A DNA stretch of 64,000 nucleotides from Hygrophila difformis. Its lineage: Eukaryota > Streptophyta > Magnoliopsida > Lamiales > Acanthaceae. The translations under genes and the position numbers were made by a program. Position 1 is the first letter of the stretch. Every line of letters starts with the position of its first letter. The DNA is taken from NCBI GenBank assembly GCA_030278955.1, contig JAOANR010000003.1:58645628-58709627 (forward strand), written 5' to 3'. Below are positions 24,601-61,734 of the stretch, in pieces. The notes under the pieces were generated by a model. That model saw nothing but the letters and a program-made list of their open reading frames with translations, was not told where the DNA came from and did not search any database.

Positions 24601-24605
24601 ACTGT

Positions 24606-26923: not shown

Positions 26924-26937
26924 GGCTCTGATACCAA
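26924..26937 (-). other. Primer-binding site of the 26-28 kb LTR element
   Basis: TTGGTATCAGAGCC on the minus strand, the complement of the 3' end of initiator tRNA-Met, and the same site used by the three Copia elements here. Confidence 0.7.
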
Positions 26938-27660: not shown

Positions 27661-28112
27661 CCCATCTTTCAACCGGCTGGGCCCACTGACTCCGATCACT
27701 GTTCCGGTGTTGTCCAGCCGTTGACCGGCGGAGTTTTGGTCAGATTCCGGCGACTTCGCCGGAGCTCCGGCGACGACGGCGATGACAGCGACGATGGTGG
27801 CGGCGGCTGTGGGGCCCTCTTTTTGACCTCCTTATGCTGTTTTGATCCGTATGTGCATCTCGAGGTCTCCTTTCTTCCGGATTCAGTTGGACAAGGTGGG
27901 TCCCAAATTAATGAGACTCGGACCTTTCCTGTATTCTTCTGCCTGCATTAACAACTTCAGTCTGGGCTCCTTCTTCGGCTCCAATTTATCTGCTTCCTGA
28001 AACAGATACAAAGAAACTGAATTAATGAACTTCTTTATTCGGTTTTTCGAAATCGGTCCCTCGGGGAATTAGGGAATCAGATGCCATGTGTCATGACATC
28101 CATGTCACTGGA

Positions 28113-28482
28113 CCTGTTTGAGAATTAGATGTTAGCTGTTAACTTATTATGTGAGTAATTTGAGTAATAAATTAGTTAAAAATTAGTTGTTTGATAGTTT
28201 CGAGACACTTTTTTTTCCTAAAATAAGCTAATTCCAAAATGCTGCTATTTGCAGCGGTTTCAAAAAGAGCTAATTGAACACTAATTTAAGTTATTTTATC
28301 TTTTTAAATAAGCTAATTTATCTTGAATTGACTAGAATAAGCTAATTTCATTTATCTTATTTGCCAAACAGAGCCACTGTAATTAGTGTTTATTATATAT
28401 ATAGGATTTTAGACTATTTTTAGTATGTATTTTAAAAGCTAAACGCTAATTGCTAGCGTTTGTTCCCAAATGCAGCCGTAAT
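28113..28482. mobile_element. Possible MITE with weak inverted ends
   Basis: GGACCTGTTTGAGAA at the left and the loose inverted counterpart TTCCCAAATGCAGCC at the right bracket AT-rich sequence with GCTAATT repeats. No convincing target duplication. Confidence 0.3.
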
Positions 28483-28570
28483 CGGCCAGGCTCAGACCTC
28501 AAAAAATTGACGTAGGCCTAGTTGAAGCCTAAGCCTAGCCCGACCTAGCCTATTTCTACCCCTAGATTTG

Positions 28571-28646
28571 GACCACGAGCCCAAACCACACATATTACAA
28601 AGGGGAGGGATAGGGGCCGAGGATCGAACCTCCAACCTATGGTTGT
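28571..28646 (-). mobile_element. SINE, family S2, copy 7 (fragment)
   Basis: Minus-strand box B (GGAGGTTCGATCC) and an adjoining S2 segment; both ends are missing. Confidence 0.65.
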
Positions 28647-28649
28647 GTT

Positions 28650-29174
28650 ATCGCCTGAAAGATATTTCCTTGATAATAACAATAGTTTGGTCCATTACGT
28701 CCTGTTGGTGTTCCGATGGACTGGCTATAACTATTGTACATATAATATGGATTGTATCCATATGCCAGTTGCTGGTAACCATTGTAATTGAAATACATGA
28801 TGAACAGTAAATTAAATTAAGACTAAAAACTGAAAAAGATAAATAAAATACAGAGTTTGAATGAATTTTTGATGATGCCCTTGCTTATTACAATAGAAAT
28901 CCTATGTATAAAACTAATAGTGCTCCTTTCTAAACACACATATGCTCACAAAAATGCAGCCCTAGTACACATTCAAATAACCAATCCACCACTAAAAATA
29001 ACCACCCCTAAAACTTCTCTAAAATAACTAATATTATTTTTATTATTTTTGTGTGATAACAGGTTGGAAGGCTGGGAACATGACCACTTGGGTCAAGCCC
29101 CATTCCCAGGTCCAAATTAAATTTAAATGTAAATAATATTTAGATAGAATAAGTGATAATAGTAATTAATATAA
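28650..29174. other. Spacer, nothing recognised
   Basis: AT-rich, with short ORFs lacking domains. Confidence 0.45.
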
Positions 29175-29183
29175 AAATAATAC

Positions 29184-29371
29184 CATTTTTTTTGGAGGAA
29201 CCATTAAAAAAAGAAGGAGTGGTGGGAGCCCATGCCACATGAATTACAAATTATAAAGGTAACAAATGGCGAGATAAGAAGCGGGGTGGGGATTCGAACC
29301 CAACCTATAGGTTGGGATATAGGTTGGGAGTCGGGGACTTGCCACTAGGGTGAGTGAGTCCCCAACCCCAG
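29184..29371 (-). mobile_element. SINE, family S2, copy 8, just 3' of the intact KAS gene
   Basis: Complete S2 on the minus strand (box B GGGTTCGAATCCC, body GTAATTCATGTGGCATG). Target duplication AAATAATAC at 29175-29183 and 29372-29380. It lies about 95 bases past the stop of the intact KAS I-like gene, in the same orientation, so it probably falls in the 3' UTR or just beyond. Confidence 0.88.
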
Positions 29372-29466
29372 AAATAATACAATTGAGATAATGCTGTGAA
29401 TACTGAAATTGCAACCTCTTGTCTGGTAGGGCAACTTGGAAGGGTTTCTCGGTTTGCTTGACTTGT

Positions 29467-31772
29467 TTAAGGCTTATACGGCGCCAAAACGACCACAGAA
29501 TTGTGCCCACCAAATCCGAAGGAGTTGGATATGGCTGCAAAAAGACAGTTCTCTATATAAGTTTGCATGTAAAGTAGGTAGCATGATTGTTTTAACAATG
29601 AAATCCAAGTTTTAATCTTTTTGCTTTTCCCACGAAAATTCATTGGAAAGATTTGTCACCAAGACCATCATCAATCTTTGGCAAGATTTGTCATATCTGA
29701 GAGTTGAATGTCAGGGGAGGCGATAAGGAAAGACAACAGGAAGATAACATACCTACATTTACTTCATGTTGTTTCTTTACATTTGGGACAGTGTCGAAAG
29801 TCACCTCAGGTTCCAGGTCCTGAGAAAAAACCAATGGAAATCAAGACATGACTTTAGGATCAATGATGCCAAATTTCAAGGAACTTGTGTGTACATATTG
29901 GTTGATGGTGGGATGTAACCAGCCGGTGTTGATTGCTTTAATGGTTGCTATAGCTTCTAATGCACCTGCGGCGCCAACTCCATGTCCAATCAATGACTGA
30001 ACCAAGTTAAAACAACCTCAGCAAGATTACTTTGGATAAATTTATTGAGCAATATGATTTGCTTCTGATAAACAAAAAAACTTCACTTTTATGCTGTTCA
30101 TCTTAATCTCTGAAGTATCTTTGAAGGCCTTCTTGATGGCAATAACCTCTGCCAAATCTCCAGCTGGTGTTGAGGTAGCGTGAGCATTCACATAATTAAC
30201 CTGTCGTTGGAAAGTGCGTATATCATGTTTAGCAGAATCAAGTACTATATGAGATATGAAAACGCAAATAACTGTGACCTCTTCAGGTGAAACCCCTGCA
30301 TCTTTTAAACTCTGGGTTATGCAAGACAAAACGCCAAGTCCATCAGAACGAGGGTGGGTCACGTGATGGGCATCGCTGGTGATTGCACCTCCCAAGTATT
30401 CAGCAACAATGTTGGCACCTCTTTTCAAGGCGTGTTCTAAGCTTTCCATGATCTGCTTATTATACCCATTTTTCATGAATAGTACAAACTATGAGATTCT
30501 TATCTGATTTACACCCAAATTTATTTCAAGCTAATGGAATTTAGACTAACCAGTACACCGGAGCCTTCACTCATAACAGTACCATCGCGGCTTTTGTCCC
30601 ATGGCCTTGGCGCTTTCTCTGGTTCATCATTTCTTTTCGACAAGGCTTTGAGGGCTATAAAGCCTCCCATTACAGCATAATGAATTGGAGCGTCTGTCCC
30701 TCCAGCTACCATGATATCTGCCTCCCCTCTTCTAATATGATTAGCTGCATTAAAGAAGCAGTAATTTGATGAAGCACAAGCCGCTGAAATGTGGTAATTT
30801 GGACCCATTAAGCCTGCATCAACAGCCAGCAATTCGGACCCCATGTTGTAGATTACATTAGGAATCAGAAATGGACTTATTTTCCTATATCCCTTTTCTC
30901 TCAATGCTTCAACTTCAGTGGTGAAAACATTGTCACCTCCAAAGCAAGATCCCACCAGCACTCCTATTCTTGACTTGTCCATCTGCAATGCACAGTAGCT
31001 CTTTCAGACAAGAAAACACAAAGTTACCAGAGAGTGCAGATGCATATATATATATATATTGAAAGCACTCGCATTTTTGAGAATTTCTTTCCCAAGGTTA
31101 GCATCATCAAGTGCCCTTTTGCCAGCAACCACAGAATATCTCCAGCAGTCATCTAGTTGTTGGTCACTTTTGTCATCAATGTATCCCTGGGAGGTAAAGT
31201 TTCGGATCTGCCCCGCGATCCTTACTGGGAGTCCTGATGCATCAAATCTATCTATCGGAGTTATTCCACTTATTCCATCGAGCAGTTTATCGTAGAATGT
31301 GTCGATGTCGCTGCCAAAAACTGAAACAAGGCCCATTCCTGTTATAACAATCCTTTTCTTGGGATCCATTTCTCTCCTGGGAGCTGACACTGTAGGAGAT
31401 GCCATTGCCCTAATTCTGTTGCCCTTTGCTGCTGAGGTCTCAACAGAGCAAGTATATCAATGCATAAAATGGAATTGGAATGTGGAATCAGAAAACCATA
31501 GTATGAATTATAAAGATTATCACATAAAAAATGAGTAAAGCAGAAGACATTAATTTTTCTTTCTTCAAATGAAACCATGTTCTTCAACAGAGTAATTTTA
31601 TCAAACAAATGGAAATCATAACATTAAAGCTCAAATACATGGAAAGTACAAACATGACAGATCAATCATACGAACCCTTAGTCCCAATTCCTACTGAATC
31701 CACTCGTACCCCATTTGATTCTTCTCTACGGAGGATGAAAGGAGAGCAAGATACACAATATACAGTAGCCAT
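29467..31772 (-). CDS. KAS I-like 3-oxoacyl-[acyl-carrier-protein] synthase, complete 8-exon copy
   Basis: Condensing enzyme that would extend acyl-ACP with malonyl-ACP in plastid fatty-acid synthesis. Exons (minus): 31772-31710, 31438-31073, 30982-30551, 30452-30279, 30200-30087, 29996-29895, 29819-29753, 29534-29467; 1386 nt, 461 aa, near the usual plant KAS I length (about 470). A plastid transit-like N-terminus precedes DPKKRIVITGMGLVSVFG. Catalytic Cys lies in SAACASSNYC, His in NAHATSTPAGD and His in LIGHGVGAAG; FGFGGHNS closes the fold. Intron 2 begins GC (GCGAGT) instead of GT; this choice keeps frame and the family's spacing before MDKSRIGVLVG. Oddities: the conserved GFVMGEG is TVMSEG, the GGTEA block is GGTDAPIHYAV, and the usual DPRADG is HPRSDG. 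It may be a specialised or weakened enzyme. Four copies lie in tandem; this is the only complete one. Confidence 0.87.
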
Positions 31773-32486
31773 TACCCCCGAATCTCCAAACAAATAAGAT
31801 AAGGCTGATTCTAAATATTTACTCTCAACTCGATAATTTCTCAATAAAAACACTAATAAATTTAATGAATCTTGCACGTAAAGCAAATGCAGCTCACGAC
31901 AAATTTGACATTAATTTATCTGCAAAACCCCAGTTAGATTGCTCTACTGCACCTACTTCACTAATTTTTTTCAAAAGTTTCAGCAGTGGTTATAGAATAT
32001 AATTATGGTCACATATCTGCGCCGTTATAGCAAAATATAGATGGCATAACGCATTAAATTCTCTATAGTGTTGAGAATTGTTGGCCCAAAGATGAGCAAA
32101 TAGGTTGTTGATCAGGTGTCAAAACCAATAATATCAACAAGAATTTAATGTGAGGCATATTTTTCCAATGGCTAAAAAGTCTATATTTAAAGTGTATCAG
32201 TGTATAGAGAGATCCATATACCAAGTCATGAGTTATATATCCCTCATGCCATAAGAGGCGGAAGAAATGTTATCGCTCAATTATGAATTACACTTTCCTT
32301 TCATTGTATAAGCATAACATAATTTTTTTGGGGGTTGAAATAGAAACATACAATAATTAGAACATATGCTTATGTATATGGAGAATTTAATTATTCAAAT
32401 TGGTTACATTGTGGTGTGGACATTCATCTTTTAAATCTAATGCAACTGGAATATTACTGATTATGTATACTGAGAGAAAGGAAGAT
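31773..32486. other. Upstream flank of the intact KAS I-like gene
   Basis: Promoter side of the gene. The first 320 bases are shared with the upstream flank of copy psi2 (25976-26275). No clear TATA box or other regulatory motif can be singled out. The flank is cut at 32491 by Copia-1. Confidence 0.5.
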
Positions 32487-37452: not shown

Positions 37453-37806
37453 GGGAAAAAAACCAATATGATCCCACAACTTTCGTGTGTTTCTCAAATG
37501 GTTACATAATTGTGCACTTCACTTAATCCATCCAATATGTTTGCCAATCCTCGCCCAAATGGTTCCATTCGAGCTTAATGATCTCCCAGGCTGACGTGTC
37601 GCAAGGATTAAGGGTTAATTATGGGACCATTTGAGAAACGGACGAAAGTTGTGGGATGATTTACCCGTTAATCCTCACAATTAACCTCCGATGGGATCAT
37701 TTGGGCGAGGATTAGCAAACATATTGGATGGATTAAGTGAAGTGCACAATTATGGGACCATTTGAGAAACACACGAAAGTTGTGGGATCATATTGACTTT
37801 TTTCCC
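37453..37806. mobile_element. Foldback Mutator-like MITE, family F1, copy 2
   Basis: 354 bp, beginning GGGAAAAAAA and ending TTTTTTCCC, with long inverted arms (ACTTTCGTGTGTTTCTCAAA and its complement). Perfect 11-bp duplication AGTGAATAAAG at 37442-37452 and 37807-37817. Same size and termini type as 12781-13136. It is inserted in the 3' flank of KAS psi3. Confidence 0.88.
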
Positions 37807-45152: not shown

Positions 45153-45803
45153 TTGTACAAAAACGATAGCACAATTGTGGCCACCAAATCCGAATGAGTT
45201 CAATATAGCTGCAAGATTTTGGACGTCGGTTGTATAAGTTAGCATGTAAGGTAGGTAACACTGGTTTGAGTTTTGACATTGTACAATTTCCATTCTTGTT
45301 TCTTTTTCGTGATAAATTCATTGGAAGCCTAAAATAAGGACATTGTTAATTAAGGCAAGGACAAGGACAAGATAACATACCGACATTTACTTCATCTTGT
45401 TTCTTTACATTTGGGACAGTGTCAAATGGAGACCTCAGGTTCCAGATCCTGCATAAAATAACTGAGAATTAAGACATGACTTTAGGATCGATGATGCTAA
45501 ATTTCAAGGAACTTGTAATATAGTAGTCCTCCCGTACATATTGGTTCAGGGTGGGATGTAACTAGCCGGTGTTAATAGCTTTAATGGTTGCTATGGCTTC
45601 AAACCCACCTGAAGCTCCAATTCCGTGTCCAATCAATGACTAAACCAAGTTAAAACAACCTCAGCAAGATAAACAAAAAACTTTCACCTTTATGCTGTTC
45701 ATCTTAATCTCTGAGGTATCTTTGAAGGCCTTTGTGATGGCAATAACCTTTGCCAAATCTCCAGCTGGTGTAGAGGTAGCGTGAGCATTCACATAATTAA
45801 CCT
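45153..45803 (-). pseudogene. KAS I-like copy psi3, middle piece (exons 5-8)
   Basis: Minus-strand exon 5 (45803 to about 45690, NAHATSTPAGDLAKV), exon 6 (about 45642-45541, IGHGIGASGGFEAIATIKA with a stop replacing the W of INTGW), exon 7 (about 45450-45383, frameshifted) and part of exon 8 (FGFGGHNCAIVF). The catalytic His positions are recognisable, but stops and frameshifts make it a pseudogene. It is bounded by Copia-2 on the left and Copia-3 on the right. Confidence 0.85.
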
Positions 45804-46722
45804 TGTTGGGAACCAGTTTTGAGCAAATGTGTTCACAACCGATGTCTGAACTACTTTGTTGGACCAACCACGACAACAACAGATAAACTAAGTAAAGGAA
45901 GAAGAGCTAGCTAATATACTCATGAAGATCCTCCAACGGCTAGCTGATCTTCTGCCCGGATCTTGCACACGGAGTATGGAAACTACAATCTCTTAATTCG
46001 GGCAACTCTATTCTAAGGATCCGCGCATTTATGGAAAGGAGATCTTCTACCTTAGAATAGAGACAAGGTGATTCTCTTCAAATAGGGCGGCCAAGGGATG
46101 GATCTGTACGACGAGTGAATTGACTTACACCCTTGAGCAATCAAAAGCAACTGTGAAGAAAGAATCACATTCCTTCAGTGTTCGCGAGTTTATCATTTCG
46201 AAGGAAGAAATCTGATCAACACTTCATCGGGTGAATTGATCGACAGTGTTACCGTGAGCTTGATTGAAGTCGACGGATTCAATCAAGGCTTTCGAGGAGT
46301 CGTCAAACTCAAGAGCTTAATTGAAAGATTCAAGGAGGAGAGTCGCCAACAGGTTTCTACCAAGGACAAACTTGAAGGAGTGAGCCTTCAAGGAATTGAA
46401 GCAAGGTCGGGGAGATCTTCACTAAGACAGGGGGAGTGTCTTGGTTTGACAATTCAGTCCACTTGGTGATTGGAGTTGGGCGAAACAAATCACTATTGTT
46501 TAGATCAAGGATCAAGTCAAAACAATTAGTGAATCTCCTGGATTGGTATCCCCAAGATGTAGGCTTGTGCCGAACTGGGTCAACAAACCTTGAGTTCTTT
46601 ATTCTTACAGTTTATTTACTTTCCGCTGCTTAATTACTTAAACTGTTTAACGTGTCCACGAAAGGTGTTTGAACTAGTTTTCAGGACTACTTAATTGGTT
46701 ATCCACGCAATCGGACCTAACA
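45804..46722 (+). repeat. Copia-3 5' LTR
   Basis: TGTTGGGAACCAG…GACCTAACA. ORFs inside it are incidental. Confidence 0.95.
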
Positions 46723-46724
46723 AT

Positions 46725-46736
46725 TGGTATCAGAGC
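46725..46736 (+). other. Copia-3 primer-binding site
   Basis: TGGTATCAGAGC two bases after the LTR, matching initiator tRNA-Met. Confidence 0.9.
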
Positions 46737-46772
46737 CACACGCTGTGGAAAGTGAGATCCAGACAAAGAAGC

Positions 46773-49700
46773 ATGGAAAACCAAGGCGGATCTGTAACCA
46801 GACCTCCATTGCTCGATGGATCCAACTATGCATACTGGAAAGATCAAATGGAGGCTTTTCTCATTGCTCTGGATGAAGGGGCTTGGGATGCAGCAGAAAA
46901 CCAATACCATCCTCCAGTAAAAGAAGAAGACGGTGTAAAAACCATCAAACCAAGGAGTGAATGGACTGCTGCCGAGAAGCTTGCCGCTTCAAAGAACTCC
47001 AAAGCCCTGAATGCAATTCACAATGCTGTCACAAAGGATCAATACAGACTCATCGCTGGATGTAAGGTTGCATACGATGTCTGGACTACTTTAGCCAATA
47101 CCTACGAGGGTATGGCTCCGGTAAAGAAATCTAGAATCATTACTCTCGTTGCTCAATTTCATAAGATCTCTATGGATGATAATGAGTCAGTCGGCCAATA
47201 TATTGGTCGCATTCGTGATCTAACCAACCAAGCTCTTCAGCTTGGCAAAGTGTATTCTCAACAGGACATTGTAGGAAAAATCATTGGGACGCTTCCGGAA
47301 AGGTTCAATGCAAAAGTCGCCGCACTTGAACTATACAAAGACTTTGATAAATTGCAGGTTGATGAACTAATGGGAATCCTACAATCGTGGGAAATGGATC
47401 ACTGTCCCAGGACCAAAAGTAAACCAGTGGCATTCAAATCCGTGACCAAGGATGTGGATGACTCCTCCATGGAAGATCATGATGACTTTAGTGACGAAGA
47501 AGAATTGGCTATGCTGTCCAAAAGACTAAATCAGATCATCAAGAACCGAAGATCTAGATTCAACTCATCCATGAAGAAGGATGCCGGGACATCAAACTCA
47601 AAATCCACTCAGAAAGGCTCGAAGTCACTCGACAAAAATAAACCAAAATCTTCAAAGATTGAAGATGACAAGGAGATCATCTGCTTTGAATGTGGGGGAA
47701 GAGGCCATATGAAAAAAGACTGTGCCAATCTCAGACCAAAGGAGTCCAGCAAATCCTATCAAGTAACGTTCAGTGACTCTGAAGATGAGAAGGAGTCTAA
47801 TGAACATGGTGTAAACTATGGAGTAGCCTTCATCGGCACATGGGATTCAGATAGTGATGATGAACCCGAGGCAGGTATTGGTACCAACTCAGTCAATATG
47901 GTTTCCTCTAACATGGTTCGCTCTTTTGCTAGGGATCAAGATGAAAGCATCAGTAAACTTAATGATCTCTATGAAGAAACTTTCGAGAAACTGGAAATAT
48001 CCATTGCTGAATCAGTAGAATTACATGTTGAGAATGGAAGCCTAAAGGAACAACTCCAGAGTCTCACAAGCAGAAATCAGGAACTTGAAAAGGCGTCCAC
48101 AGAGCTGTCGGGACTGGTGAACGGACTACGTGAGAAAAATGCAGAGCTTCAGAAAGAAAACAAGGAACTGGAGGTTGAAAAAGTTGACTATAAACTATGG
48201 TACTACAGTATGCTTGGAAAGAAAGATGCTCTTCACACCGAACTCACCGAAGTTCAAGACAAACTTGCCAAGGCAGAAAGCACTCTAGCGGCACTAAACA
48301 AAGGAAAAGCCAAGTTAGATGATGTAATTGCTATGGGAAGGCCGAGCAACAACAAACAAGGCTTGGGATATCAAGCCTCAGCCTCAAGAGGAGAAAAGAA
48401 AAGCAAGTTTGTGTCTGGGGGAATGCTAAGTGAACACCGAACTATCAAGAAATCATTCCATCCTGAAGGAAGGAACAAATGGACAAGAAGACCACCACCT
48501 CCAATCCCACTCAGATGCGATTATTGCAAGCTTGAAGGCCACAAAACCAAGAACTGTGGGATCTTGGTAAGAGACCTACAAACAGGAAAACCTATCACCT
48601 GGCCAAGTGACAAAATCAAGATGAAGCTGATCTCCATCAAGTGCGAATGGGTTCCTAAAATTCAGAACAAATGTCAAGTTGCCTTTCTTTCACAAAAGAA
48701 GAATGTTGCGGACAAAGTATGGTACTTCGACAATGGATGTTCCAAACACATGATAGGAGAAAGGAGTCTGCTCAAACACTACAAAGAGATTGATGGAGGA
48801 TTTGTTGTATTTGGAGATGGAAAAAGGGGTGCCCTAGTTGGACAAGGCACCATTGAGAACAATGGCTCGAAGGAACTGTCTCCAGTTTTCCTTGTCGATG
48901 GACTCCAAGCTAACTTGATAAGCATCAGTCAGTTGTGTGATGAGGACCTTGTGGTGCAGTTTACCAAGAAAGATTGTCAAGTGCTCAATCAAGATCAAGA
49001 ATGCATCATGAGAGGTTTGCGCTCTAAAAATAATTGCTATCATCTTGTTCAAACTTGCAATTTTGGTGCAGCTACAGGAAAAGATCACATCACACTATGG
49101 CATGAAAAACTTGGAAATCTCAACTTCAAAGATCTTATCAAACTCAGCAGAACCGGGGCAGTCAAAGGTCTTCCTCAATTCAAAAAATCAAATGCAGTTC
49201 TCTGCAACGAATGTGCCAAAAACAAACAGCACAGGAGTTCACACAAATTGTCTGAACACCCTGGATCAACCAAGTGTCTTGACCTACTGCACATGGATCT
49301 TATAGGTCCAATGGAAGTTGAAAGTTTGGGAGGTAAAAAATATATTTTTGTATGTATTGATGATTACTCCAGGTACACGTGGATAGATTTTCTCAGGGAA
49401 AAAGGCGACACGTTCAAAGCTTTCGAGAAGCTGTGCAATCGACTCATGACCGAAAAGGACACCAAGGTGAAACGAATTCGAAGTGATCATGGACGAGAGT
49501 TCGAAAATCAATTCTTTGAGGAATACTGTGCAACACATGGAATTAAGCATGAATATTCGGCACCAAAAACACCTCAACAAAATGGAGTAGTCGAAAGAAG
49601 AAATCGAACTCTACAAGAAATGTCTAGGGTGATGCTCAATTCAAAGAAAGTGGCTGAATTCCTTTGGGCCGAAGCCGTTAACACAGCATGCTACACCATA

Positions 49701-51776
49701 AACCGAGTCTACTTAAGGCCAAACTCTCTTATGACTCCATATGAGATTTGGAACGGTAAAAAGACCTCAATTACTTATTTCCATATTTTTGGTAGCAAGT
49801 GTTTTGTTCTAATTGACAGGGAACATGTTGGGAAGTTTCAAGAAAAAAGTAATGAAGGAATATTTGTGGGATACTCTACCACAAGTCGTGCATACAGAGT
49901 ATATCTTCCTAAAACAAGGAAAGTACTGGAGTCCACAAATGTGACCATAGAAGATGTGACCAGCAAAGAGGTTGTTCCACCTCATGATGATGAAACTCCC
50001 AGTGGTCAGGATGATCAAAATAGTGCAGCTCTACCCACGTCTGATGACCAGTCCACCAAAAGAGTCCAAACGCCAACCATGGACACCTTGTCACGAGAAG
50101 CAGAACCTCAAAAGGATCTAAATGGACGCATTCACAAGCATCATGACCCTGAAGACATTATTGGTGATGTAAATGAAAGGAGAAAGACTCGAGGGAAAAA
50201 GATCGACTTTAAAGAGCTAGCTGGCTTGCACTGCTATACTTCAAAGATCGAACCCTCCAGAGTTGAAGAAGCTCTTCAAGATGAACACTGGATAAATGCC
50301 ATGCAGGATGAACTACTCCAGTTTGAAAGAAATGAAGTCTGGACCCTGGTTGAAAGACCTCAAGACATGAACATAATCGGAACCAAGTGGATCTTCCGCA
50401 ACAAAAGTGATGAAACAGGGAATATTACAAGGAACAAAGCTCGGTTAGTTGCTCAGGGTTACACCCAGGTTGAAGGTGTCGACTTCAGTGAAACATTTGC
50501 GCCTGTAGCAAGACTTGAAGCAGTCCGACTCCTACTGTCCATCGCATGCTCGCTAGGATTCAAGCTTTATCAAATGGATGTCAAAAGTGTCTTCCTAAAT
50601 GGTTGGCTTGATGAGGAAGTGTATGTAGAACAGCCTAGAGGGTGTGAAGACCCCCATCATCCTCAACATGTCTACAAGCTCAACAAGGCACTCTATGGAC
50701 TGAAACAAGCTCCTAGGGCTTGGTACGAAAGGCTTTCCAAGTACCTGCTTGAACATGGATTCGAAAGAGGAAGCTTGGACAAAACTCTCTTTATCAAAAG
50801 AGAAAACAAAGGAATTCTCATTGCTCAAGTCTACGTCGATGACATTGTCTTTGGATCAACACACCATGTGCTCAAAGACCAATTCATCGAAATAATGGGT
50901 AAGGAGTTCGAAATGAGCATGGTAGGGGAACTAACTTATTTCCTTGGCTTGCAGGTTGCTCAGAAGAAAGATGGAATATTTCTAAGCCAAACAAAATATG
51001 CCCGAAACATTGTTAAGAAGTTTGGCATGGAGTCCAGCAAACCCGTCCGAACGCCTATAGGGACGAATGATAAAATGAGCAAAGATCCCAGTGGTCAAAG
51101 TGTTGATCAGAAACTCTATCGAAGCATCATTGGAAGTCTTCTATACCTAGCTGCAAGTCGACCTGACATAAGCTATGCAGTAGGAGTTTGTGCTCGCTAC
51201 CAAGCCGATCCCAAGGAATCACACCTGAAAGCTGCCAAACGAGTGATTAAATATGTTTCAGGGACTAGTGATCTTGGCATATGGTATTCTAAAGAATCTA
51301 ATCTTTCACTACTTGGTTATAGTGATGCAGATTGGGCAGGTGATGCAGATGATCGAAAAAGCACAACCGGAGGATGCTTTTACATTGGAACTAACTTAGT
51401 TAGTTGGTATAGCAAGAAGCAAAGTTCCATCTCCCTCTCAACTGCCGAAGCTGAATACAATGCAGCTGGAAGTTGTTGTGCACAATTGCTATGGATGAAG
51501 CAAATGATGCTAGATTATGGGATTGATCAAGAAGTCCTCACTATACTATGTGACAACATGAGTGCGATCAACATCTCAAAGAATCCAGTCCAACATGGGA
51601 GGACGAAGCACATTGAACTCCGACACCACTTCATAAGGGATCTTGTCGAAGAAGGCATAGTGTCCATACAACATGTCGGGACTACTGAGCAACATGCGGA
51701 TATTTTCACTAAGGCTCTTGATCGTGAGAGATTCGAAAAATTAAGAAGAGATCTCGGCCTATGCACGATCACATAA
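46773..51776 (+). CDS. Copia-3 gag-pol polyprotein (Sirevirus-type)
   Basis: 1667 codons from the ATG at 46773 ([14 protein letters not shown]). Gag domain; first zinc knuckle [14 protein letters not shown] (about aa 304); an acidic segment and a long coiled coil (about 390-530, heptads with ELEKASTEL and [13 protein letters not shown]), as in Sirevirus gag; a second Cys/His cluster [14 protein letters not shown] (about 582); protease [11 protein letters not shown] (about 650); integrase ([10 protein letters not shown] to [11 protein letters not shown], about 775-940); reverse transcriptase with YVDDIVF (about 1354); RNase H with DADWAGD (about 1519). The frame is open throughout. Oddities: the protease active site reads DNG where the family has DSG or DTG, and the RT has DVKSVFLNG for the usual DVKSAFLNG. 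Confidence 0.94.
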
Positions 51777-52239
51777 CTCCCGAAAATTGTGGAATAAGTT
51801 TTTAATTTGTAATTTCCATATTTTGTGTAATTTTATATTTTATTACCTCAATAATGTTTTCTAACTATCTTGTTAAGAATATTCCACAGGATCTCCTTAC
51901 TTGAGAAGTTAATCTCCTCCATTTAAATTCAAACAAGGAAAGAATCAATTCACTTGATTTGACATCTCATCATGGCACGTCTGACGTACAGCCGGCGGGA
52001 ACGGTTGATAGCCACCAAAAATTCAAATTTGTGATCATGACCATGTTTGGGAACCGTGATTCACCTTCCATATTCAAATTAAGGGAAGTTTCCTCATAAC
52101 CGCTATCTCACATCCTTATTTGATCGGATTCTCCTACCTCACATACTTACTCTTCTCTCAAAGAAATCTCTCGGCTTTTTCTCTTCCAAACACACATCCA
52201 CTCTCACTTGTTCTTGCCAAAAGTTTCTTTTCAGCTACA
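51777..52239 (+). other. Copia-3 spacer between pol and the env-like frame
   Basis: Non-coding stretch of about 460 bases after the pol stop. It may hold splice or internal-promoter signals for the downstream frame, but I see no decisive motif. Confidence 0.5.
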
Positions 52240-54108
52240 ATGGTGAAGACACGAGGAAGCCAATGCTCCAAATCGCAAGACCCGATTCCTGCCTCAACTG
52301 CTGGAAGCAAGAAAGGTGTCTCTCCAGGAGAATCCAGCGCCAAAGGGAGGGCAAAGGCAGTACAACAAGCTATTATCGAACAGACTATTTCGGAGACTCC
52401 ATCCATCGTCCCTGTTCCTTTTCCGTCGTCCTCTCCTTCTACTGTCGGAGGACAAGGCACTACCTCTGTTGGTGTCCTCGACCCACTGGACATAAGGGCT
52501 GAAGTTGCTGGAGCCACTACCACAAAGCCAAAAGGAGACGTGCCACAGAAATCAAAAACCAAGACTGTCTCCTCAAAACCACGAGAGAAAGCCGTTGCAA
52601 GGAAGAATGCATCCATCAGCGAACGAGTTGAGGCAGACCTTGCCCAAGCGCTCAAGCCTATTGAAGCTATTCTCGCTGACCTACCTGCAATGGGTTCCGG
52701 CAAAGATGCTGAAGGAATCATGACCACTAAAGTTGCTGATCCTGCTCCGACGAATGCACCCAAGGTGTCCACTGAAAGTTCAAAGAAGAAAACTCCTGCA
52801 AAGAAGGCTGTACCAGGGCCAAGTGTTCCGACCAACCCAGCACCAATCACCACTGTTGAAGCAACCCCTGAAGAACCCCTGCAGATCACTACCACAGTGA
52901 CCCAAATAGGTCCACCAAAGGAGTCCGAACCTGTCAATGAACCACTTAACGAGGAAGAACTGGACTCAGACTATATTCAAGAGGAGGCTGATGAAAGCTC
53001 TGGAGATGAATCAATGATTGACATCAGCGATGACGAAAGAGATTGTGCTATGAACGAAATCACCGAAGAAATTGCTTGGACTGCCAGTCAGAAACGAAAA
53101 CATGCGCTGAGGAAGGAACCAGAGCAAGTTGCAGTGATCAAAGAACCAGTTGTTCACACTGAAGTTGTTCACACTGAGGATGAACAGGAGGAAGAAGAAG
53201 AAGATGAGAGTTCATCTGAAGATGACCAGAACAATGAGTCCGGAGGAGACTCTGTACACCCTCAAATCGATGCCCAGGAACCACTTGAGGGGGAGAATCC
53301 CACTGACAACCAGTCCGAAGAGTTGGTATCTCAAGACACTCAAAGTGGAGAGGAAGAGTCCGATGAAGAGAATTCTGAAGAAAGAGTCGAGGTCAATGTT
53401 GAACAAGTCGCTGTGCACGAAGCAGTAACCCAGCCAGAAGCACGAGAGCCTACGTCACCAAGGAGTTCACCCAAGGAGTCTGAACCCAAAAAGCGGACTC
53501 GTTTTGAACCTGAAGCCTCTGCCAAAGCCTCTGGATCCAAGAAAAGGAAGATTGCTGAATCCTCATCCGAGGACCATGAGCCTGAGATCATTGATGCCGG
53601 GAATGCCATTTCCATTGACTTCTATTATGAAGTGTCCAAGCACTACTTCTCAACTGTCTTGGAGAAAATGAAAGTCCATCCTGAGATTCGCTTTGCTGCG
53701 GAACGATATGAGGAGATGGGGTGGCACAAGTACCTGGAGGAGAGGTCCCTTTTGTTTTGGGGAACGGAGATCAAGCAGTACAAGGGACAGCTAGTTAGGC
53801 ATTTTTATGCAAACCTGATCTTTGAAGTCCTCAATACCAAGAGCCCCTGGCTCGAACTTGGTTATGCCCATGGAGAGCTGTTTGAACTCAAAGCCAGGGC
53901 CTTGAATCGCTTTCTCCAGGTACCCCGCACTTCTCTGAAATCTGTTTACTCTCGAGGTGCAAAATTCCCTATGAACACTATTGCTGAAACATTCTCTGGA
54001 GTGGAAGGGAAAAGATTTCAGGGAAAAGGATTGAGTGCAGGAGTTCTGATAATGGCCAAAATTGACCATTATTTTCAATCTATTTCCGTGTCTAATACGG
54101 ACATTTGA
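52240..54108 (+). pseudogene. Copia-3 env-like ORF, 5' part, truncated
   Basis: Starts at the ATG at 52240 (MVKTRGSQ, a start common to Sirevirus downstream ORFs). A low-complexity Ser/Thr/Pro/Lys region and a Glu/Asp/Ser-rich acidic region (about aa 230-430) are followed by a more conserved domain (from about aa 460, ISIDFYYEVSKHYFS) of the kind annotated as putative plant transposon or retroelement protein. No signal peptide or clear membrane span is seen, so 'env-like' is by position only. A TGA at 54106-54108 ends it, and a 5.4-kb insertion starts ten bases later; the same frame resumes at 59499. Confidence 0.8.
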
Positions 54109-55084
54109 TCGCATTCCGGTCTTATTTAAATAAGAAAGCAGTTGAATTTGACAAATATATGCAAGTTTGTATAAATAATAAGCTGTTATTGAAAAACACA
54201 AAAATATTGTTATTTTTATTAAATTTGTATTAAAAAACCCAAAAACATGATAAAAATATTCAAAATCCTACATTTGATAAATTTGGTTTGGTGGTATCTG
54301 TTCGGTGAAACATGGGTCTATTAAATAGAACACAAGCCAAATAATCAATTGGAAGAAATATCTATATCTATTTATGCATATATAGTATTTATTTTGTCTA
54401 TATTTATATATACAATAAAAAAAAAAAGAGAAGAAACGAAACAGAAAAAGAAACGAAAATGAAGCAAAAATGAAAACAAGTGTAGTTTATACAGGTGGGG
54501 CCCACACTACATCACTCCCAAATTGCATTTTTGCAATTGAATGGAAACAGGAGCAGCATCGATTCCGGCCACTCATCTTCAACTTTCACTCCGGCGAAAC
54601 AACAACCGCGGCCTCTCCTCAATTCCGCTGCTCCGATCATCTTCCCAACTCCATCACTCCGGTCATCGTCTTCATCCGTGTCAACAGCTCCGGCGAGACC
54701 CGAAATGGTGAAAACCCACAAATTATTTTCCTCTTCCGGCGAGAATCATCACCTTCTCCGATTGCTACCTCAAATCCGGCGAAGCAGCGGCCATGGCAGT
54801 CCACTCCTTCGTCATCTTCCGGCACTCCAGTATCACCACCACCACCTTAAGGAAACTCCCGTCACCGCCGCTGTTCATTATTGGAAGCTCCGGCGAGTCC
54901 CGAAAGTCGCAACTACAACAAAGAACAAAACTCCGATGTGCCGCCGCAAGCTTCCTTCTCCGGCTAATCACCATTCCGCCTCTGTTGCTGACATCCACAT
55001 ACATCTCCAACCATTACTCAACTCCGGCAGCAATTCTCCGAGGACGACGCTATCCTCCATCCCACACCACGAAGCCATCCTCCA

Positions 55085-55255
55085 ACACTACGACGCTAGC
55101 CTCCGGAAGTATAGCGTCGTCCGGCCGAGTGTAGCGTCGTCCACCCCAGCCAGCCCCTTCCCCAACTACGGCGCCAACCCCCATCAAGAGCCTCACGTGT
55201 AGCGTCGTAATGAGTTTGTAGCGCCGTCCTTTGCTTCAGCGTCGTCCTTTTTATC
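55085..55255. repeat. Cluster of TAGCGTCGTA cores upstream of a TATA box
   Basis: About seven TACGACGCTA/TAGCGTCG(T/C) or GGCGCC variants in 170 bases, about 190 bases before CTATAAATAG. The architecture matches that of the minus-strand element at 27.3-27.7 kb. Confidence 0.75.
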
Positions 55256-55433
55256 CTGCGTGTACGCCCTCCCCCCAATTCAAATTGGAGAATTTTTCCC
55301 ATGTGCACAATTGCATAGGAAGGCCCTGGACCTGAGGTCCCTAAGTGCTAATACTTTTGTCTTCTCCTCCTGGACCACGAAGACCCGTCCCTCGCTGCGA
55401 AAATTTCGAGCTGGCCCAAGGCCCATTGGACTT

Positions 55434-55455
55434 AGGGTTTAGCGGCTATAAATAG
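55434..55455 (+). promoter_or_regulatory. Putative promoter of the inserted element
   Basis: TTAGGGTTT then GCGGCTATAAATAG, a strong TATA-box context typical of plant LTR promoters. It would drive rightward transcription through the palindromic array. Confidence 0.5.
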
Positions 55456-56105
55456 CTGATTTGACCTCAAACAGTAAAGGAGACATCAGTCAAAAAAATT
55501 ATTTGCTGTTCTTGGGGACAACTTGGTGTTTCCTGGTTTAGTTTAGGGTAGTTAGATATTTTAATTTTACGCAATGTAGAACTAGTTTAGTTTATTTTTA
55601 GTGTCTAGCATGTTAATATCGCCTCATTTTCTGTAGTTAGCCATGTCTATAATTTTTACAGCTTTTAGTTTGTATTTTTTTTGGTTTCAAACACTCAACT
55701 AATGGGTCTATTTGAACCATTTTTATTATCTTCAATGATATGCAAGAAAAATGCTCCAAAAAATCTGTTATGGAACTCATTCCATGGGTTGTTTACTGTC
55801 TCATTTTCATTTTGGTCATTTGACCCATTTTTTTGAGTTTTAGTAAGGTTTTATTGCTTTCCTTGTTTAATAAATGCTCAAATACTTGACATTCATCCAT
55901 TTGATGATTTATTAGTTTAGGTCTTGTTTATATTTTCATTTCCAGTTTGGTTTTAGTTTATTGTTAGTTGAGTAGTTATTTTTATTTTATTTTTGATGTT
56001 GTCCTTAACTTTATTTTCTTTTTTTTTTTTTAGGATTAGTATAATAGATCTAAAAGTGGATGATATTTTTGTGTTTGTGCATGTTCAAAAACTTGAAAAT
56101 AGGGT

Positions 56106-56182
56106 TTTGCAATCGCATAGATTGCATTACCCGACCAACAATTTTAGGGTTTGCAATCGCATAGATTGCATCACCCGAACAA
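56106..56182. repeat. Two-copy repeat with inner dyad
   Basis: TTTGCAATCGCATAGATTGC followed by A-T-(T/C)-A-CCCGA occurs twice (from about 56104 and 56150), about 46 bases apart. Each core GCAATCGCATAGATTGC is itself an interrupted palindrome. Confidence 0.85.
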
Positions 56183-56199
56183 CAACATTCTGGGCTAGC

Positions 56200-56671
56200 T
56201 ACGACGCTAACCGCCCTACGGCGCTATCCTTGGATAGCGTCGTAGGTGAGGTTTAGCGCCGTAGTTATCCAGACTTAAACAAAAATTTGCCTTACGGCGC
56301 TAGACCAACGACGCTAACCTCGGATAGCGTCGTAATTTTTGTTCAGCGTCGTAGGACCCCAAAATACTTCATTTCTCATAAAAACCCACCTACGGCGCTA
56401 TCCTCACGACGCTATCCTAGGATAGCGTCGTCATTTAATGTCTAGCGCCGTAGCATCTCTCCTTTTTCCAAAAACTTCTTTCTTCCCCAATTTCTCAAAC
56501 CACCTACGACGCTACACCTACGACGCTATCCTAGTATAGCGCCGTAAATTAGCGTATAGCGTCGTACACACCCCTTTAACCCCAAAATTTCACCTCTTTC
56601 ACCAATCCACTACGGCGCTATACCTACGACGCTATCCTAGGATGGCGTCGTAAAATCCGCCTAGCGCCGTA
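56200..56671. repeat. Tandem array of five nested-dyad (hairpin) modules
   Basis: Modules at 56200-56263, 56293-56353, 56391-56452, 56505-56566 and 56611-56671, start-to-start 93, 98, 114 and 106 bases. Each has an outer pair TACGRCGCTA / TAGCGYCGTA and an inner pair such as ACGACGCTATCCT / AGGATAGCGTCGT; in module 3 the inner pair is a perfect 26-base palindrome. Spacers of 30-50 bases are pyrimidine- or A-rich and not conserved. The symmetry, not the spacer, is conserved. Confidence 0.92.
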
Positions 56672-59498
56672 ATTGGCATTTTTGCCAAATTTTCCATTTC
56701 TCCATTTTCCTCATTTAATTAATTGAACCTTTATATTAACATTTTGAGGTTGAAATCCAATGATCTCAACCCATGATTAATTTGATATAAAGAACTTTGT
56801 TCAATTTTCCATTAAAAGACTTTTCTACAAAATAAAATAAAAATTAAACTCTAATGATTTAAGTATATAATCCGGACTGTAATTAATTAATTAATTATGG
56901 AATGAGTGATTATTTAGACATAAAGAGTAATTATGGATTTAATTCCATACCCTTGCATGAGAAACCAATGTCTCTCATACAAGATGACCCAAAAATATTT
57001 TCTTTTATTTATTTTGTCTTTATCCGTATTGTGTGAAACAACTAGTAAGAGATATAACAGACTAATGTTGGCGGGTATTCCCACACGGATAAACTAGCTC
57101 GTGGTCTGTATATTAATTACTAGATGTTATTTTGCATGGTCTGGATAGTGGCCGGTGGAAGCCTTGGCGGTTCGTCCATCCGGGATTATAATAGCTGCTC
57201 AGCTGACTCCTATCCGGATACAATTTTCTTTTCTTTATTTTAATTTCAAACACCCGAATCTGGAGCTGTAGTAATGTTAGATGATATTTGCCAATGTCAT
57301 CTAATAATTATTGCAGTGATAGAACATGTGGGTTTTTATCCAAATTCACAGATAGTGGAGTCTAAGATGACGGTGGCAACTGTCATTTAGGGAATTCCAC
57401 TATCTAAAAATCATCCCACCTGGAATAGTCAGGACCTGGATCGCAGATGTTTGCAGTCCGGATTATCCTGATTATTTTTGTCATCTTTTTAGCCAAAAAT
57501 AAATTCTTCTCACCTCCGGCTATTTCATCTTTATGTTCCAACTTCTGTCTAAACTCACCTTATATTTTGGGTTATTTAATTTTACACTTCTTTATAAATT
57601 TATGCATGATATTATTATGTAAATATTGTGGTCAATATTATTTTGGGATCATTCCCTTGGATACAGGAGTCTTGATTTTAATCAGATGTCTCACAATAAA
57701 TTTCCAACAAAAATTCATTTATAAAATCCGGATTTGAGTAAGGGATAAATTCCACAGTTATGACTAATTCATATCCGACTGGGGGTTGATTTTGGGAAAT
57801 TAGAAGCAGAGTCAGCGATTAGGTCTCACCTAGACTGAAAGGATCTGTGTTTTAATTGAGAGTCTAGTACCTGTTTAGGGAATGATTTTCAAATCAATTA
57901 TTTTCCAAAATTGCTTTGTGTTGGAAATCTGGTATTAAATATCACACTGAGATGGGGTCCACTTGGATTCAAATACGGTGTGATAGATAATTCTAGAGGA
58001 ACAATACATAGGCCTTGGTTATTTTCTAAGATAGGGTTGAGTATTCTTTCAACGGCTATCCTCTTCTGCCAGAGCCTATTTTTGAGTCCTGAGTGAGTGC
58101 ATCCGGAACGAACTAATTTATTAGTTCGTTTCATTAGTTTGTATCTCATAACCACCCGACGGGAAGTGAACACTGCGAGCGGTTCACCGAGAATAGGGAA
58201 TTCTTGATCCACATCCGGTCATTCTGACTGGGGGCTTTCTTTTACTACCAGGGTCAGACTTTAAAAAACCTCCGAGTGATAGGATTTAAATGCTTTCTTT
58301 ACCGCTTTCTTTACCGCTTTCTTTTAAATGCTTTCATTAGAGGTCACTCGGTTGTATTGAGAGTTGTGTAACTGCTACTAGGACTGAGAGTTAAGGGATA
58401 GTTCAGGGCTTAATTAGAATCTTCGGATGTGACATGGGGGAATGATAGCAGTACTTGACACTTCAACTAATGATTTGTCAGGTGTTGCTTATCCACCACA
58501 GATAAATAACACACCATTGCAAGGGTAGTTATGTGTCTGTGGTATCTTAGAATTTATTTTCTTAAGAGCATGTAAACTCTTACTGTAAGTACCTGTCTGT
58601 TAAAGGGAACATGGTATAGAGAGCATGAAAATTAGCTAACTGAATGGATTATCCCAAGCAAAGATCTGTGTAACAAAATGGAAGTTTAACTGTGTTTCAT
58701 CTGAATCTTGTCCAATCTTTATTCTTTTCTTCCTGTCCCTTCTGTCATATTTTAAATCTGCTTTCTTAGAATAATCTTAACCGCTTTCTTAGAATAATTT
58801 TATTGCTTTCTTAGATTAAATTTAATTCGCTTTCTAGAATAATTTTATCTGCTTTATTTTAATTGCTTACATAACTTAGTTTAAATTCTGTCGAGTAGAT
58901 TATAATCAAACACAAACTTGAATCGAGTAACCGAGTGAAAAATCTTAGTAAACGACGTGGGCCCTGCTTCCATCGCACATCCTCCAGTGAACGATCCGGT
59001 ACTTACTATAAATTACTGCAATTTTTGACTCCGTGCACTTTCGGGGGCACAGTTTCTTAACACGAGTGAATAAAAACGTGACAACCTATAAATATATCCC
59101 TAATCCCAACTCCGCCTTCATAATTTGGTTTCATTAAATAAAATTGAAAACCAGGATTATTATGTTTCAGAAAATACTCATGTAATGGGAACTTGTCAAA
59201 AGTTTCATGGCAAGGATCTTCAAGGCACGAAATTGTCAAAGATTTCATGTCGGGGAGGTCCATAACGTCGTTTGAACTCAAAGTTTCCTCTCATGAGTAA
59301 TAAAAAGTGAAATATATCCTTAAACCCCTTTCCCACAAATCATAACTCTTTTCATTTTAATAAATTCAATCCTGATATATTTTATAAAAATATACTCGTG
59401 TTAGTGAAATTTGTCAAAAGTTTCAAGTTCTGACTCAAAGGTTTGCTATGCTGTATAAATTGTGTGCTCACAATATCATGCCAACTGCTAACATTCCG

Positions 59499-59998
59499 TC
59501 GTGTCAAAAAGCATGTGTAAATTGTTGTTTGCTATAGACCAGAAATATGAGATCAATTATGGAGCACTTGTACTTGAACAAATGCTGGGATTTGCTGGAA
59601 AAGTCAAGAGGAAGTATAACACCACACTTCCATTCCCTGGTCTCATCTCGGAGTATCTAAAGCATCTCCACATCATGGGCAGCAAACGTGATCGTCCTGA
59701 GGATATTGCTGACTTCAAGCTCTCTGCCAACTTTGCCAAGAAGAAGCCAGACCTGGCTGGACCAGGAGGAAGGATCCCTGCAAAGGATGCCTTTTCCCAG
59801 CTCCGTGATGATCTCACTGACCATATCAATCATCTCAAAGTGTTGGAAGCTCAAGTACACATGCAAGTTCAATCCGCTGAAAAGATGCTTAGACAGCTTC
59901 CTGATGTCTGGTCGGATGAAGATGAGCCATTGGATACCAATCCAGAGGAGGAGTCCAGCGAGTCTGATGCTGATTCCTCTGATGCCTCAGAGTGATAT
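59499..59998 (+). pseudogene. Copia-3 env-like ORF, 3' part
   Basis: In-frame continuation of the frame interrupted at 54118. It contains SKSMCKLLFAID, LVLEQMLGFAGKVKR and an acidic Ser/Asp-rich C-terminus ending SDASE before the stop. On its own it lacks a start of its original frame. Confidence 0.85.
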
Positions 59999-60420
59999 GC
60001 CCTTTTTGGGCAAATTGTGTGCCAGAGGGGGAGTAAAAGTTGATCAACCATCGGTTCCTCTGGACATTTGAAGGAAGGGAGTCTGCTACCATTTCTGCTG
60101 CTGCTGATAAAGGGTAATTTTTTGCTTTTGTTTGAACTGTTTTTGTGAACTACTGTGTTTGCTGGACAATTGCACAATGGCCTGTAATAATTAAATACAT
60201 GCTTTATTTTGTGATTATTGCCATGTGCTTACTTTTGATGTGAATGCTCCCAGAATATGTGATAGGCTATCTTGTACGGAGCATTAGTATAGTTTGTCTT
60301 GAATTGGGAACCATTGTAATTGGTGGTTGGGTTTCAATGGGAAGTATTTCAACATTATTGTTCTTGTGTCAATTGTTTAGACATCGGTTGAATCAACTCT
60401 TGTACTGGCCCACATTCTGC
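59999..60420 (+). other. Copia-3 3' untranslated region
   Basis: Non-coding stretch between the env-like stop and the polypurine tract, T/G-rich. No conserved palindromes of the CACCGGAC type known in some Sireviruses are seen. Confidence 0.55.
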
Positions 60421-60435
60421 CAAAAAGGGGGAGAT
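60421..60435 (+). other. Copia-3 polypurine tract
   Basis: CAAAAAGGGGGAGAT immediately before the 3' LTR. Confidence 0.85.
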
Positions 60436-61353
60436 TGTTGGGAACCAGTTTTGAGCAAATGTGTTCACAACCGATGTCTGAACTACTTTGTTGGACCAAC
60501 CACGACAACAGCAGACAAACTAAGTAAAGGAAGAAGAGCTAGCTAATATACTCATGAAGATCTTCCAACGGCTAGCTGATCTTCTGCCCGGATCTTGCAC
60601 ATGGAGTATGGAAACTACAATCTCTTAATTCGGGCAACTCTATTCTAAGGATCCGCGCATTTATGGAAATGAGATCTTCTACCTTAGAATAGAGACAAGG
60701 TGATTCTCTTCAAATAGGGCGGCCAAGGGATGGATCTGTACGACGAGTGAATTGACTTACACCCTTGAGCAATCAAAAGCAACTGTGAAGAAAGAATCAC
60801 ATTCCTTCAGTGTTCGCGAGTTTATCATTGCGAAGGAAGAAATCCGATCAACACTTCCTCGGGTGAATTGATCGACAGTGTTACCGTGAGCTTGATTGAA
60901 GTCGATGGATTCAATCAAGGCTTCCGAGGAGTCGTCAAACTCAAGAGCTTAATTGAAAGATTCAAGGAGGAGAGTCGCCAACAGGTTTCTACCAAGGACA
61001 AACTTGAAGGAGGAGCCTTCAAGGAATTGAAGCAAGGTCGGGGAGATCTTCACCAAGATAGGGGGAGTGTCTTTGTTTGACAATTCAGTCCACTTGGTGA
61101 TTGGAGTTGGGCGAAACAAATCACTATTGTTTAGATCAAGGATCAAATCAAAACAATTAGTGAATCTCCTGGATTGGTATCCCCCAGATGTAGGCTTGTG
61201 CCGAACTGGGTCAACAAACCTTGAGTTCTTTATTCTTACAGTTTATTTACTTTCCGCTGCTTAATTACTTAAACTGTTTAACGTGTCCACGAAAGGTGTT
61301 TGAACTAGTTTTCAGGACTACTTAATTGGTTATCCACGCAATCGGACCTAACA
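60436..61353 (+). repeat. Copia-3 3' LTR
   Basis: 918 bp, TGTTGGGAACC…CCTAACA, with about 15 substitutions and one 1-bp indel from the 5' LTR by eye. Confidence 0.95.
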
Positions 61354-61358
61354 AACCT

Positions 61359-61734
61359 GTTGTTGGAAAGTGCGTGTATCATGTTGAACAAAATCAGTAC
61401 TATATGAGATATGAAAACGCAAATAATTCAGTACTATATGAGATATGAAAACACAAAAAAATGTGACCTCTTCAGGGGGAAACACTGCATGTTTTAAACT
61501 CTGGGTTATGCAAGACAAAACGCCAATTCCATCAGAATGAGGGAGGGTCATGTGATACGCATCGCTGTTGATCGCACCTCTCAAGTACTCTGCAACAATG
61601 TTGGCTCCTCGATTCAAGGCCTGTTCTAATCTTTCCATGATCTGTTTGTACTCATTTTTTGTGATTAGAAACTGTGAGATTCTTGCAGGATTCGCACCAT
61701 TTTTTTAATTTATTTTTATTATTATAAAACTACA
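61359..61734 (-). pseudogene. KAS I-like copy psi3, upstream piece (exon 4 and flanking introns)
   Basis: Exon 4 on the minus strand at about 61638-61465 (ANIVAEYLRGAINSDAYHM…, still open) and the start of intron 3 up to 61734. Intron 4 contains a local duplication of AGTACTATATGAGATATGAA. Exons 1-3 would lie beyond the Gypsy element to the right, outside the window. Confidence 0.85.

Follow-up and report, generated by a model that had tools for sequence, protein, structure and literature searches.

The window, i.e. the whole 64,000-nucleotide stretch of Hygrophila difformis DNA analysed here, holds arrays of a short CpG-containing half-site within long terminal repeats (LTRs), and these arrays are probably the sites of a sequence-specific DNA-binding protein, of switchable specificity, that would control LTR transcription or silencing. 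This reading comes from comparison of sequences, within the window and among copies elsewhere in the genome. Two apparently unrelated LTR families seem to draw on two kinds of site in common and to switch between them.

Mirrored half-sites in five modules

The original prediction described five modules with two concentric inverted pairs each, recurring every 93-114 bases. Both coordinates and spacing are right, and the concentric pairs are borne out in all five modules (together termed array B), each of which comprises two forward (F) and two reverse (R) copies of a 10-bp half-site, TACGRCGCTA, in the order FFRR, to make 20 sites.

56200-56263: array B module 1, FFRR, gaps 7/8/9
56293-56353: array B module 2, FFRR, gaps 4/8/9
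56391-56452: array B module 3, FFRR, gaps 4/8/10
56505-56566: array B module 4, FFRR, gaps 4/8/10
56611-56671: array B module 5, FFRR, gaps 4/8/9
56101-56182, + strand: 44-bp direct repeat, two copies, directly before array B, with a hairpin stem in each

Modules are 61-64 bp long, with starts 93, 98, 114 and 106 bases apart; the centre gap is 8 bp in every one of the five, and the outer gaps are 4-7 and 9-10 bp. All 20 sites are within one mismatch of TACGRCGCTA, the variable R position giving CGA in 12 and CGG in 8. Exact ACGRCGCTA, counted on either strand, occurs 28 times in the 64-kb window where 0.10 would be expected, a number reached by none of 100 shuffles, and half-sites are present beyond the stretch first described, at 55043-55246 (array A) and 27371-27645 (array C). 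Array B is a dense array of a short motif, with tandem-repeat organization, in noncoding transposable element sequence. Its spacers had been called unrelated, which is so for most; however, two of the six inter-module spacer pairs are weakly alike (shuffle fractions 0.007 and 0.013), and this points to old tandem duplication.

The two 44-bp repeats ahead of the array form hairpins with 7-bp plus 4-bp stems (z of -5.6 and -5.0), and their sequence is unrelated to that of the TACGRCGCTA half-sites.

A solo LTR of a LARD-like family

Arrays A and B lie within a solo LTR, itself inserted in another retrotransposon.

45804-61353, + strand: Sirevirus-like Ty1/copia element with target duplication AACCT, in which the solo LTR is inserted
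54042-54046: target-site duplication AGTTC, 5 bp, left flank of the solo LTR
54047-59425, + strand: solo LTR, 5379 bp, TG...CA, of a LARD-like high-copy retrotransposon, holding arrays A and B (limits from genome-copy homology)
59426-59430: target-site duplication AGTTC, 5 bp, right flank of the solo LTR

The ends of the solo LTR are recognizable because other genome copies were compared: homology among copies runs to 59425 on the right; on the left it passes 54100, and letters of the flank remain aligned as far as 54047. A 7-bp sequence, CATTCCG, near 54113 and 59491 was considered as a target duplication and discarded as a chance occurrence, the genome copies putting the ends at 54047 and 59425.

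In the same host genome (915 Mb searched), 40 places, window included, match the whole array B query at 94-100%, these being the best 40 of 2001 first-look candidates scored. Among them are eight same-strand pairs 8.1-8.5 kb apart, taken from their spacing to be LTR pairs, one of which was checked (C9:32.60 Mb). This full-length relative, L059, has the structure LTR-internal-LTR, with an internal region of 2.87 kb whose longest stop-free stretch is 146 codons and, directly after the LTR, the primer-binding site TGGCGCCGTTGCCGGGGA, which differs from TATCAGAGC and which we take to be the tRNA-Asp type of Tat/Athila Ty3 elements. LARDs are large non-autonomous LTR retrotransposons with long LTRs, a non-coding internal region of several kb and a primer-binding site, and the solo LTR family, with its 5.4-kb LTR and an internal region and primer-binding site known from one copy, L059, fits that description.

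The surrounding Sirevirus-like element has RVT_2, gag and integrase domains, and a Sirevirus-type PPT, AGGGGGAG, then AT|TG at 60426-60437. Between its LTRs there are 15 substitutions over 918 sites, i.e. about 0.64 My at a rate we take to be 1.3e-8. The solo LTR presumably inserted later than this element and, being younger, would belong to a recently active family. Its insertion splits an env-like gene, of which the right piece resembles PF20167 below the curated cut-off and the left piece has no domain match; for the env-like open reading frame 52060-54108 no homologue was found among 7990 candidates scored. In the window's Sirevirus LTR no 8-mer has three or more copies.

Elsewhere in the window, 24275-32089 contains a diverged pair of stretches that are 81% alike along 1.3 kb; beta-ketoacyl synthase exons are present in one of them. 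Pieces 79-91% alike to them are present at 45350-45803 and 61428-61723, on both sides of the Sirevirus-like element, which therefore seems to be inserted in a third copy. An imperfect 354-bp palindrome at 37453-37806, 76% self-complementary, is possibly a foldback element.

A dense array of direct and inverted motifs could also be a captured subterminal repeat region of a CACTA-type transposon, whose encoded protein would bind the repeats. CACTA subterminal regions are similarly rich in direct and inverted stem-loop motifs (PMC2613891, as far as the available part of that paper goes), but in 54120-59491 no terminal CACTA/TAGTG pair has matching ends or a 3-bp duplication, so a CACTA transposon end was rejected, and the arrays are at promoter positions in two LTR families. 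Such an origin is very unlikely.

Site or fold

A/G changes in one arm had been reported to be often matched by T/C in its partner. Counting does not sustain this: matching arm pairs number 6 of 10 in the window, against 5.2 by permutation (P = 0.55), and matching cells 239 of 400 in the 40 genome copies (P = 0.26 with random partners). When partners are exchanged among modules, the result is much as with the true ones (fraction reaching the observed value 0.5 for inner and 0.7 for outer arms). In most of the 40 copies mismatches affect the outer and inner arms of module 1 (39 and 36), the outer arms of module 2 (33) and the inner arms of module 4 (28), those in module 1 inner and module 2 outer arms being mostly G-T, which RNA tolerates. 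A single clean covarying pair is provided by the outer arms of module 5, matched in 39 of 40 copies, where each position changed once on a tree built without the site columns; with matching at chance level and only this one event on the tree, covariation was ruled out as proof of pairing. As covariation is not above chance, base-pairing is poorly supported, and to a large extent the arms drift independently among the copies, which the original prediction had named as grounds for its refutation. A hint of arm-arm linkage does come from the pairs with polymorphism in both arms, of which there are two: in association they rank 1st and 3rd of 36. Arms may tend weakly to change together, perhaps through template switching, with strict pairing not required.

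These results bear on whether array B acts as an array of RNA hairpins in the 5' leader (R-U5) of genomic RNA, for packaging, translation or as a source of small RNAs. Its location downstream of the presumed transcription start is as such a role would have it, and folding is strong, with z = -18 for 56096-56680 (any palindrome array would give such a value) and from -4.0 to -6.9 when the five modules are folded one by one; the module 5 outer arms are also in keeping. Nevertheless, overall covariation at chance level, the restriction of the module 5 change to one tree event, stable arm mismatches in most copies, the often non-hairpin order of half-sites upstream of the TATA box and conservation that goes by half-site CpG together make it improbable. 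Of two stretches of array A, one folds no better than shuffles and the other has z -3.6, and no Rfam family reaches its gathering score anywhere in the window. The original prediction's other suggestion, a binding array for a dimeric factor, gains indirect support, in that the half-sites are kept under apparent purifying selection, recur ahead of TATA boxes, not always in hairpin layouts, and switch class as one block.

Apparent selection on the CpGs of half-sites

All 40 CpGs in the 20 sites of the window's array B are kept, while its spacers have 4 against 8.9 expected. Among the 40 copies, 39 of 1598 site cells have lost their CpG, versus 61 of 354 cells outside sites (9 CpGs), and in 2.6 kb from each of 20 sequences, that from the window included, 1014 CpGs are in sites, which account for some 10% of bases, and 783 are elsewhere.

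The eight LTR pairs permit differences within a pair, which postdate insertion, to be compared with those between the eight elements, the sample being small and the between-element comparisons non-independent. Site CpG positions differ in 13 of 638 comparisons within pairs (2.0%) and 49 of 2226 between elements (2.2%), a ratio of 1.08, whereas for non-site non-CpG positions the values are 59 of 5204 and 1222 of 17906, a ratio of 6.0. Site CpGs thus decay once inserted but hardly change in the multiplying lineage. The corresponding ratio is 2.4 for non-site CpGs, 3.7 for other site positions and 9.9 for the A/G position, which is consequently free to vary. The half-sites are under apparent purifying selection.

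This signal counts against the arrays being a neutral tandem or palindromic repeat, produced by slippage and template switching, homogenized by gene conversion and without function. The likeness among modules, the weak spacer likeness and a module number that varies from 4 to 6 among copies all fit tandem duplication, but neutrality sits poorly with the replacement of U3 sequence while the half-site is kept, and with the recurrence of both half-site classes in a second family, again at that promoter position (both points dealt with below). It has little probability as an explanation, about the same as that of the hairpins.

Position relative to the promoter and turnover of U3

Array B is downstream of the presumed LTR promoter, and a further array lies upstream.

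55043-55246, + strand: array A, eight class I half-sites (seven with at most one mismatch, one with two), order F F R R F R R R
55446-55454, + strand: TATA box CTATAAATA, presumed LTR promoter (consensus match only)

In the window copy the seven closer-matching sites of array A span 217-403 bp upstream of the TATA box, the nearest being 217 bp from it, and array B starts 754 bp downstream. A similar arrangement is found in 19 chromosome-1 LARD copies chosen by a class I FFR pattern match at module 1, i.e. because their class I module is intact. All 19 copies so chosen have an array B, of 14-23 sites, and sites upstream number 6-13 in 16 of them, three in one and one in two. A TATA box is identifiable by pattern in 14 of the 19; 12 of these have 6-12 sites upstream of it, with the nearest at 58-182 bp (the remaining two have one site each), and in all 14 array B starts 646-823 bp downstream. 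The upstream layout exists in several versions, often not hairpins.

For comparison of U3, the 450 bp before the TATA box was taken, with sites masked, from seven of eight representatives (L099 has no TATA match). Eight of the 21 pairs have no alignable sequence, the figure for array B being 2 of 21, and five of those eight join copies that both have at least six upstream sites. Around array A, then, sequence is replaced from copy to copy, with the half-site usually retained.

A second family and a second class of half-site

Array C is in the U3 of an LTR belonging to a different family.

26966-27953, - strand: LTR, 988 bp, second Ty3/gypsy family, primer-binding site TGGTATCAGAGC at 26925-26936
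27371-27645, - strand: array C, in U3, from 84 to 358 bp ahead of a TATA box at 27287; half-sites of class I plus a CACGTCGTA variant

The final 64 bp of array C (27371-27434) forms an imperfect FFRR module whose sites have one or two mismatches. Family assignment comes from one relative, with Ty3-type gag and protease (both weak, below curated cut-offs) and a Tf2-1-like integrase SH3 domain (E 5e-24); on this basis assignment to Ty1/copia, from the primer-binding site, was rejected. The Ty3 and LARD families have different primer-binding sites and the same half-sites upstream of the TATA box.

In a genome search with the array C LTR (best 40 of 832 candidates), many matches flank the array on both sides and skip the array itself. 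Of 20 loci taken, 19 yielded a U3 cassette (L133 did not): 14 cassettes, the window's included, are class I, three (L129, L130 and L132) are class II, with half-sites of GTCGCGGAAC type, and two (L128 and L135) are other. Cassette flanks align at 68-90% in 18 relatives, some of the aligned pieces being short, and the CpG observed/expected ratio is 0.95-1.72 in cassettes and 0.61-0.93 in flanks. As to arrangement, the L124 cassette has three FFRR groups and, among the class II cassettes, L130 has FFRR while L129 and L132 have long F runs before R and no clean FFRR.

L128 and L135 have further CpG half-site forms, GTCGCAAG and CGTCGTGA, perhaps representing additional classes. Because of these, and of the CACGTCGTA variant in array C, the two-class picture is blurred.

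For class II in LARD-type LTRs the evidence is one copy read letter by letter, L142, together with hit positions. L142 derives from chromosome-1 LTR-start hits (among the best 40 of 2158 candidates) without a class I match in the list, and of the chromosome-1 hits four are in the region that the class I list covers, none of them with a class I match there. It has two FFRR modules of TGTCGCGG/A half-sites, with pitches of 14-17, 17 and 18, near those of class I, and is followed by a stretch, L141, that begins with a TATA box some 90 bp on. Of the 40 places scored for a 201-bp piece of L142 (best 40 of 2946 candidates), ten are 130-131 bp before a place matching the L141 stretch, the query's own two-LTR element being among the ten. 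A further LARD-type hit, at C1:15.48 Mb, was set aside as uninformative, since the two stretches read there belong, by appearance, to another, copia-like element. LTRs of the L141 type give eight same-strand pairs 15.0-15.4 kb apart, plus other distances (best 40 of 4455 candidates), a spacing that could reflect autonomous relatives.

Genome-wide, the class I pattern has 3933 matches and the class II pattern 9012, with none for reversed controls; these totals do not count modules, since a symmetric module may be hit on each strand, and the two patterns permit different gaps. Class II matches also occur in threes, about 95-100 bp apart, like array B. Mixing of classes is absent from the copies read: it is seen in none of the 19 cassettes, and the 19 LARD copies, selected for class I, have 365 class I cores and no class II core.

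Two observations on class II copies are added here. In L141 (C1:19025700-19026300), the promoter and downstream part of a class II LTR, CpG observed/expected is 0.05 over 601 bp, while in the upstream array stretch, L142, it is 0.83, so that CpG loss is extreme outside the array. At C1:77792, C1:2455526 and C1:3409659, FFR matches of class II whose first spacer is longer are on the opposite strand about 10 kb from groups of class II modules, and may sit inside the longer elements.

A putative reader

If the favoured interpretation, a sequence-specific DNA-binding protein, is right, array B would be a cluster of composite DNA sites, bound probably by a dimer or pair of dimers that reads two facing CGRCGCTA (or GTCGCGG) half-sites at a nearly fixed distance. 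Four-site modules, and arrays of modules, would raise occupancy around the presumed LTR promoter, which arrays A and B flank. The protein, of host or element encoding, would activate LTR transcription or shield the LTR from silencing and methylation, with the consequence that lineages keeping sites and CpGs go on multiplying; that binding should help the element is suggested because it is multiplying elements that keep the sites. Specificity would switch with the U3 cassette, to half-sites either of the TACGACGCTA type or of the GTCGCGG type in a related mirror order. A more tentative proposal is of trans-acting recognition in two or more specificity classes (TACGACGCTA and GTCGCGG), spread over unrelated LTR families and switched by whole cassette, as an arms-race-like counterpart of the VANC system considered below.

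Transfer of U3 cassettes by recombination or template switching needs no switching protein, and the half-sites might then be ordinary, perhaps stress-responsive, transcription factor sites. Modular diversification of U3 is described for the Tnt1 superfamily (PMC1838419, available part), and in the array C family the flanks of the cassette align where the cassette itself often fails to. From the other side, the solo LTR insertion and the array C region have no alignable sequence in common within the window, and class exclusivity with a common mirror layout suggests a specific reader. Transfer without such a reader is possible if rather unlikely, and is compatible with, not exclusive of, the explanation favoured.

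If the DNA-binding protein exists as proposed, thousands of near-palindromic CpG composites, under apparent selection and exchanged between two specificity classes in two families, would offer a direct handle on the protein involved in sequence-specific escape of plant LTR retrotransposons from silencing, and class switching could be observed in natural copies.

Comparison with known systems

Among the titles listed, no plant-element paper was found with the motif letters and, among the titles and abstract openings listed, nothing on half-site classes common to LTR families, subscription literature being largely outside the scope of both searches. None of the ten loci from three scans of viral contigs (0, 2 and 8 loci) has an FFRR array (L004, L007 and L009 have short tandem repeats). 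CACTA subterminal repeats, in which a short motif recurs many times in both orientations and may fold into stem-loops (available part of PMC2613891), differ in that no CACTA termini are present in 54120-59491. In the Tnt1 superfamily the U3 regulatory segment differs between subfamilies whose remainder is alike, a precedent for U3 cassette turnover; half-site classes common to unrelated families, as described here, are absent from the available part of that account (PMC1838419).

The closest known system in form is that of the Sirevirus repeated motifs. According to the accessible text of PMC2829016, these are element-specific, CpG-island-like CpG palindromes, repeated many times in the LTR ahead of a conserved TATA box, each a single short palindrome, with a CGG-CCG core in all but one, and reported to be Sirevirus-specific. 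Sites upstream of the TATA box are likewise a feature of arrays A and C and of 12 of the 14 TATA-bearing LARD copies. In contrast, the sites here are split FFRR composites whose core is CGRCGCTA (centre gap of 8 bp in array B) or GTCGCGG, they are in non-Sirevirus families (Tf2-1-like integrase SH3 in one; primer-binding site TGGCGCCGTTGCCGGGGA in L059 in the other), and the arrays also occur downstream of the promoter and are common to two families.

In behaviour, the closest known system is the VANC target arrays of VANDAL transposons. The parts available of PMC5735166 and PMC10398659 describe arrays of short noncoding motifs whose classes differ between related elements, with one motif set also present in an unrelated family, AT9TSD1; the VANC protein is encoded by the VANDALs themselves, and the VANC21 motifs are in one orientation and, as printed, without CpG. 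Dense arrays of short noncoding motifs in transposable elements, with tandem organization, are shared with the case described here, which differs in its FFRR mirror order, its setting in LTR retrotransposons and its CpG half-sites. A VANC-target array is further characterized by demethylation on binding. Among the papers cited, and as far as their available parts go, VANC is the clearest case of sequence-specific anti-silencing (PMC5735166, PMC10398659).
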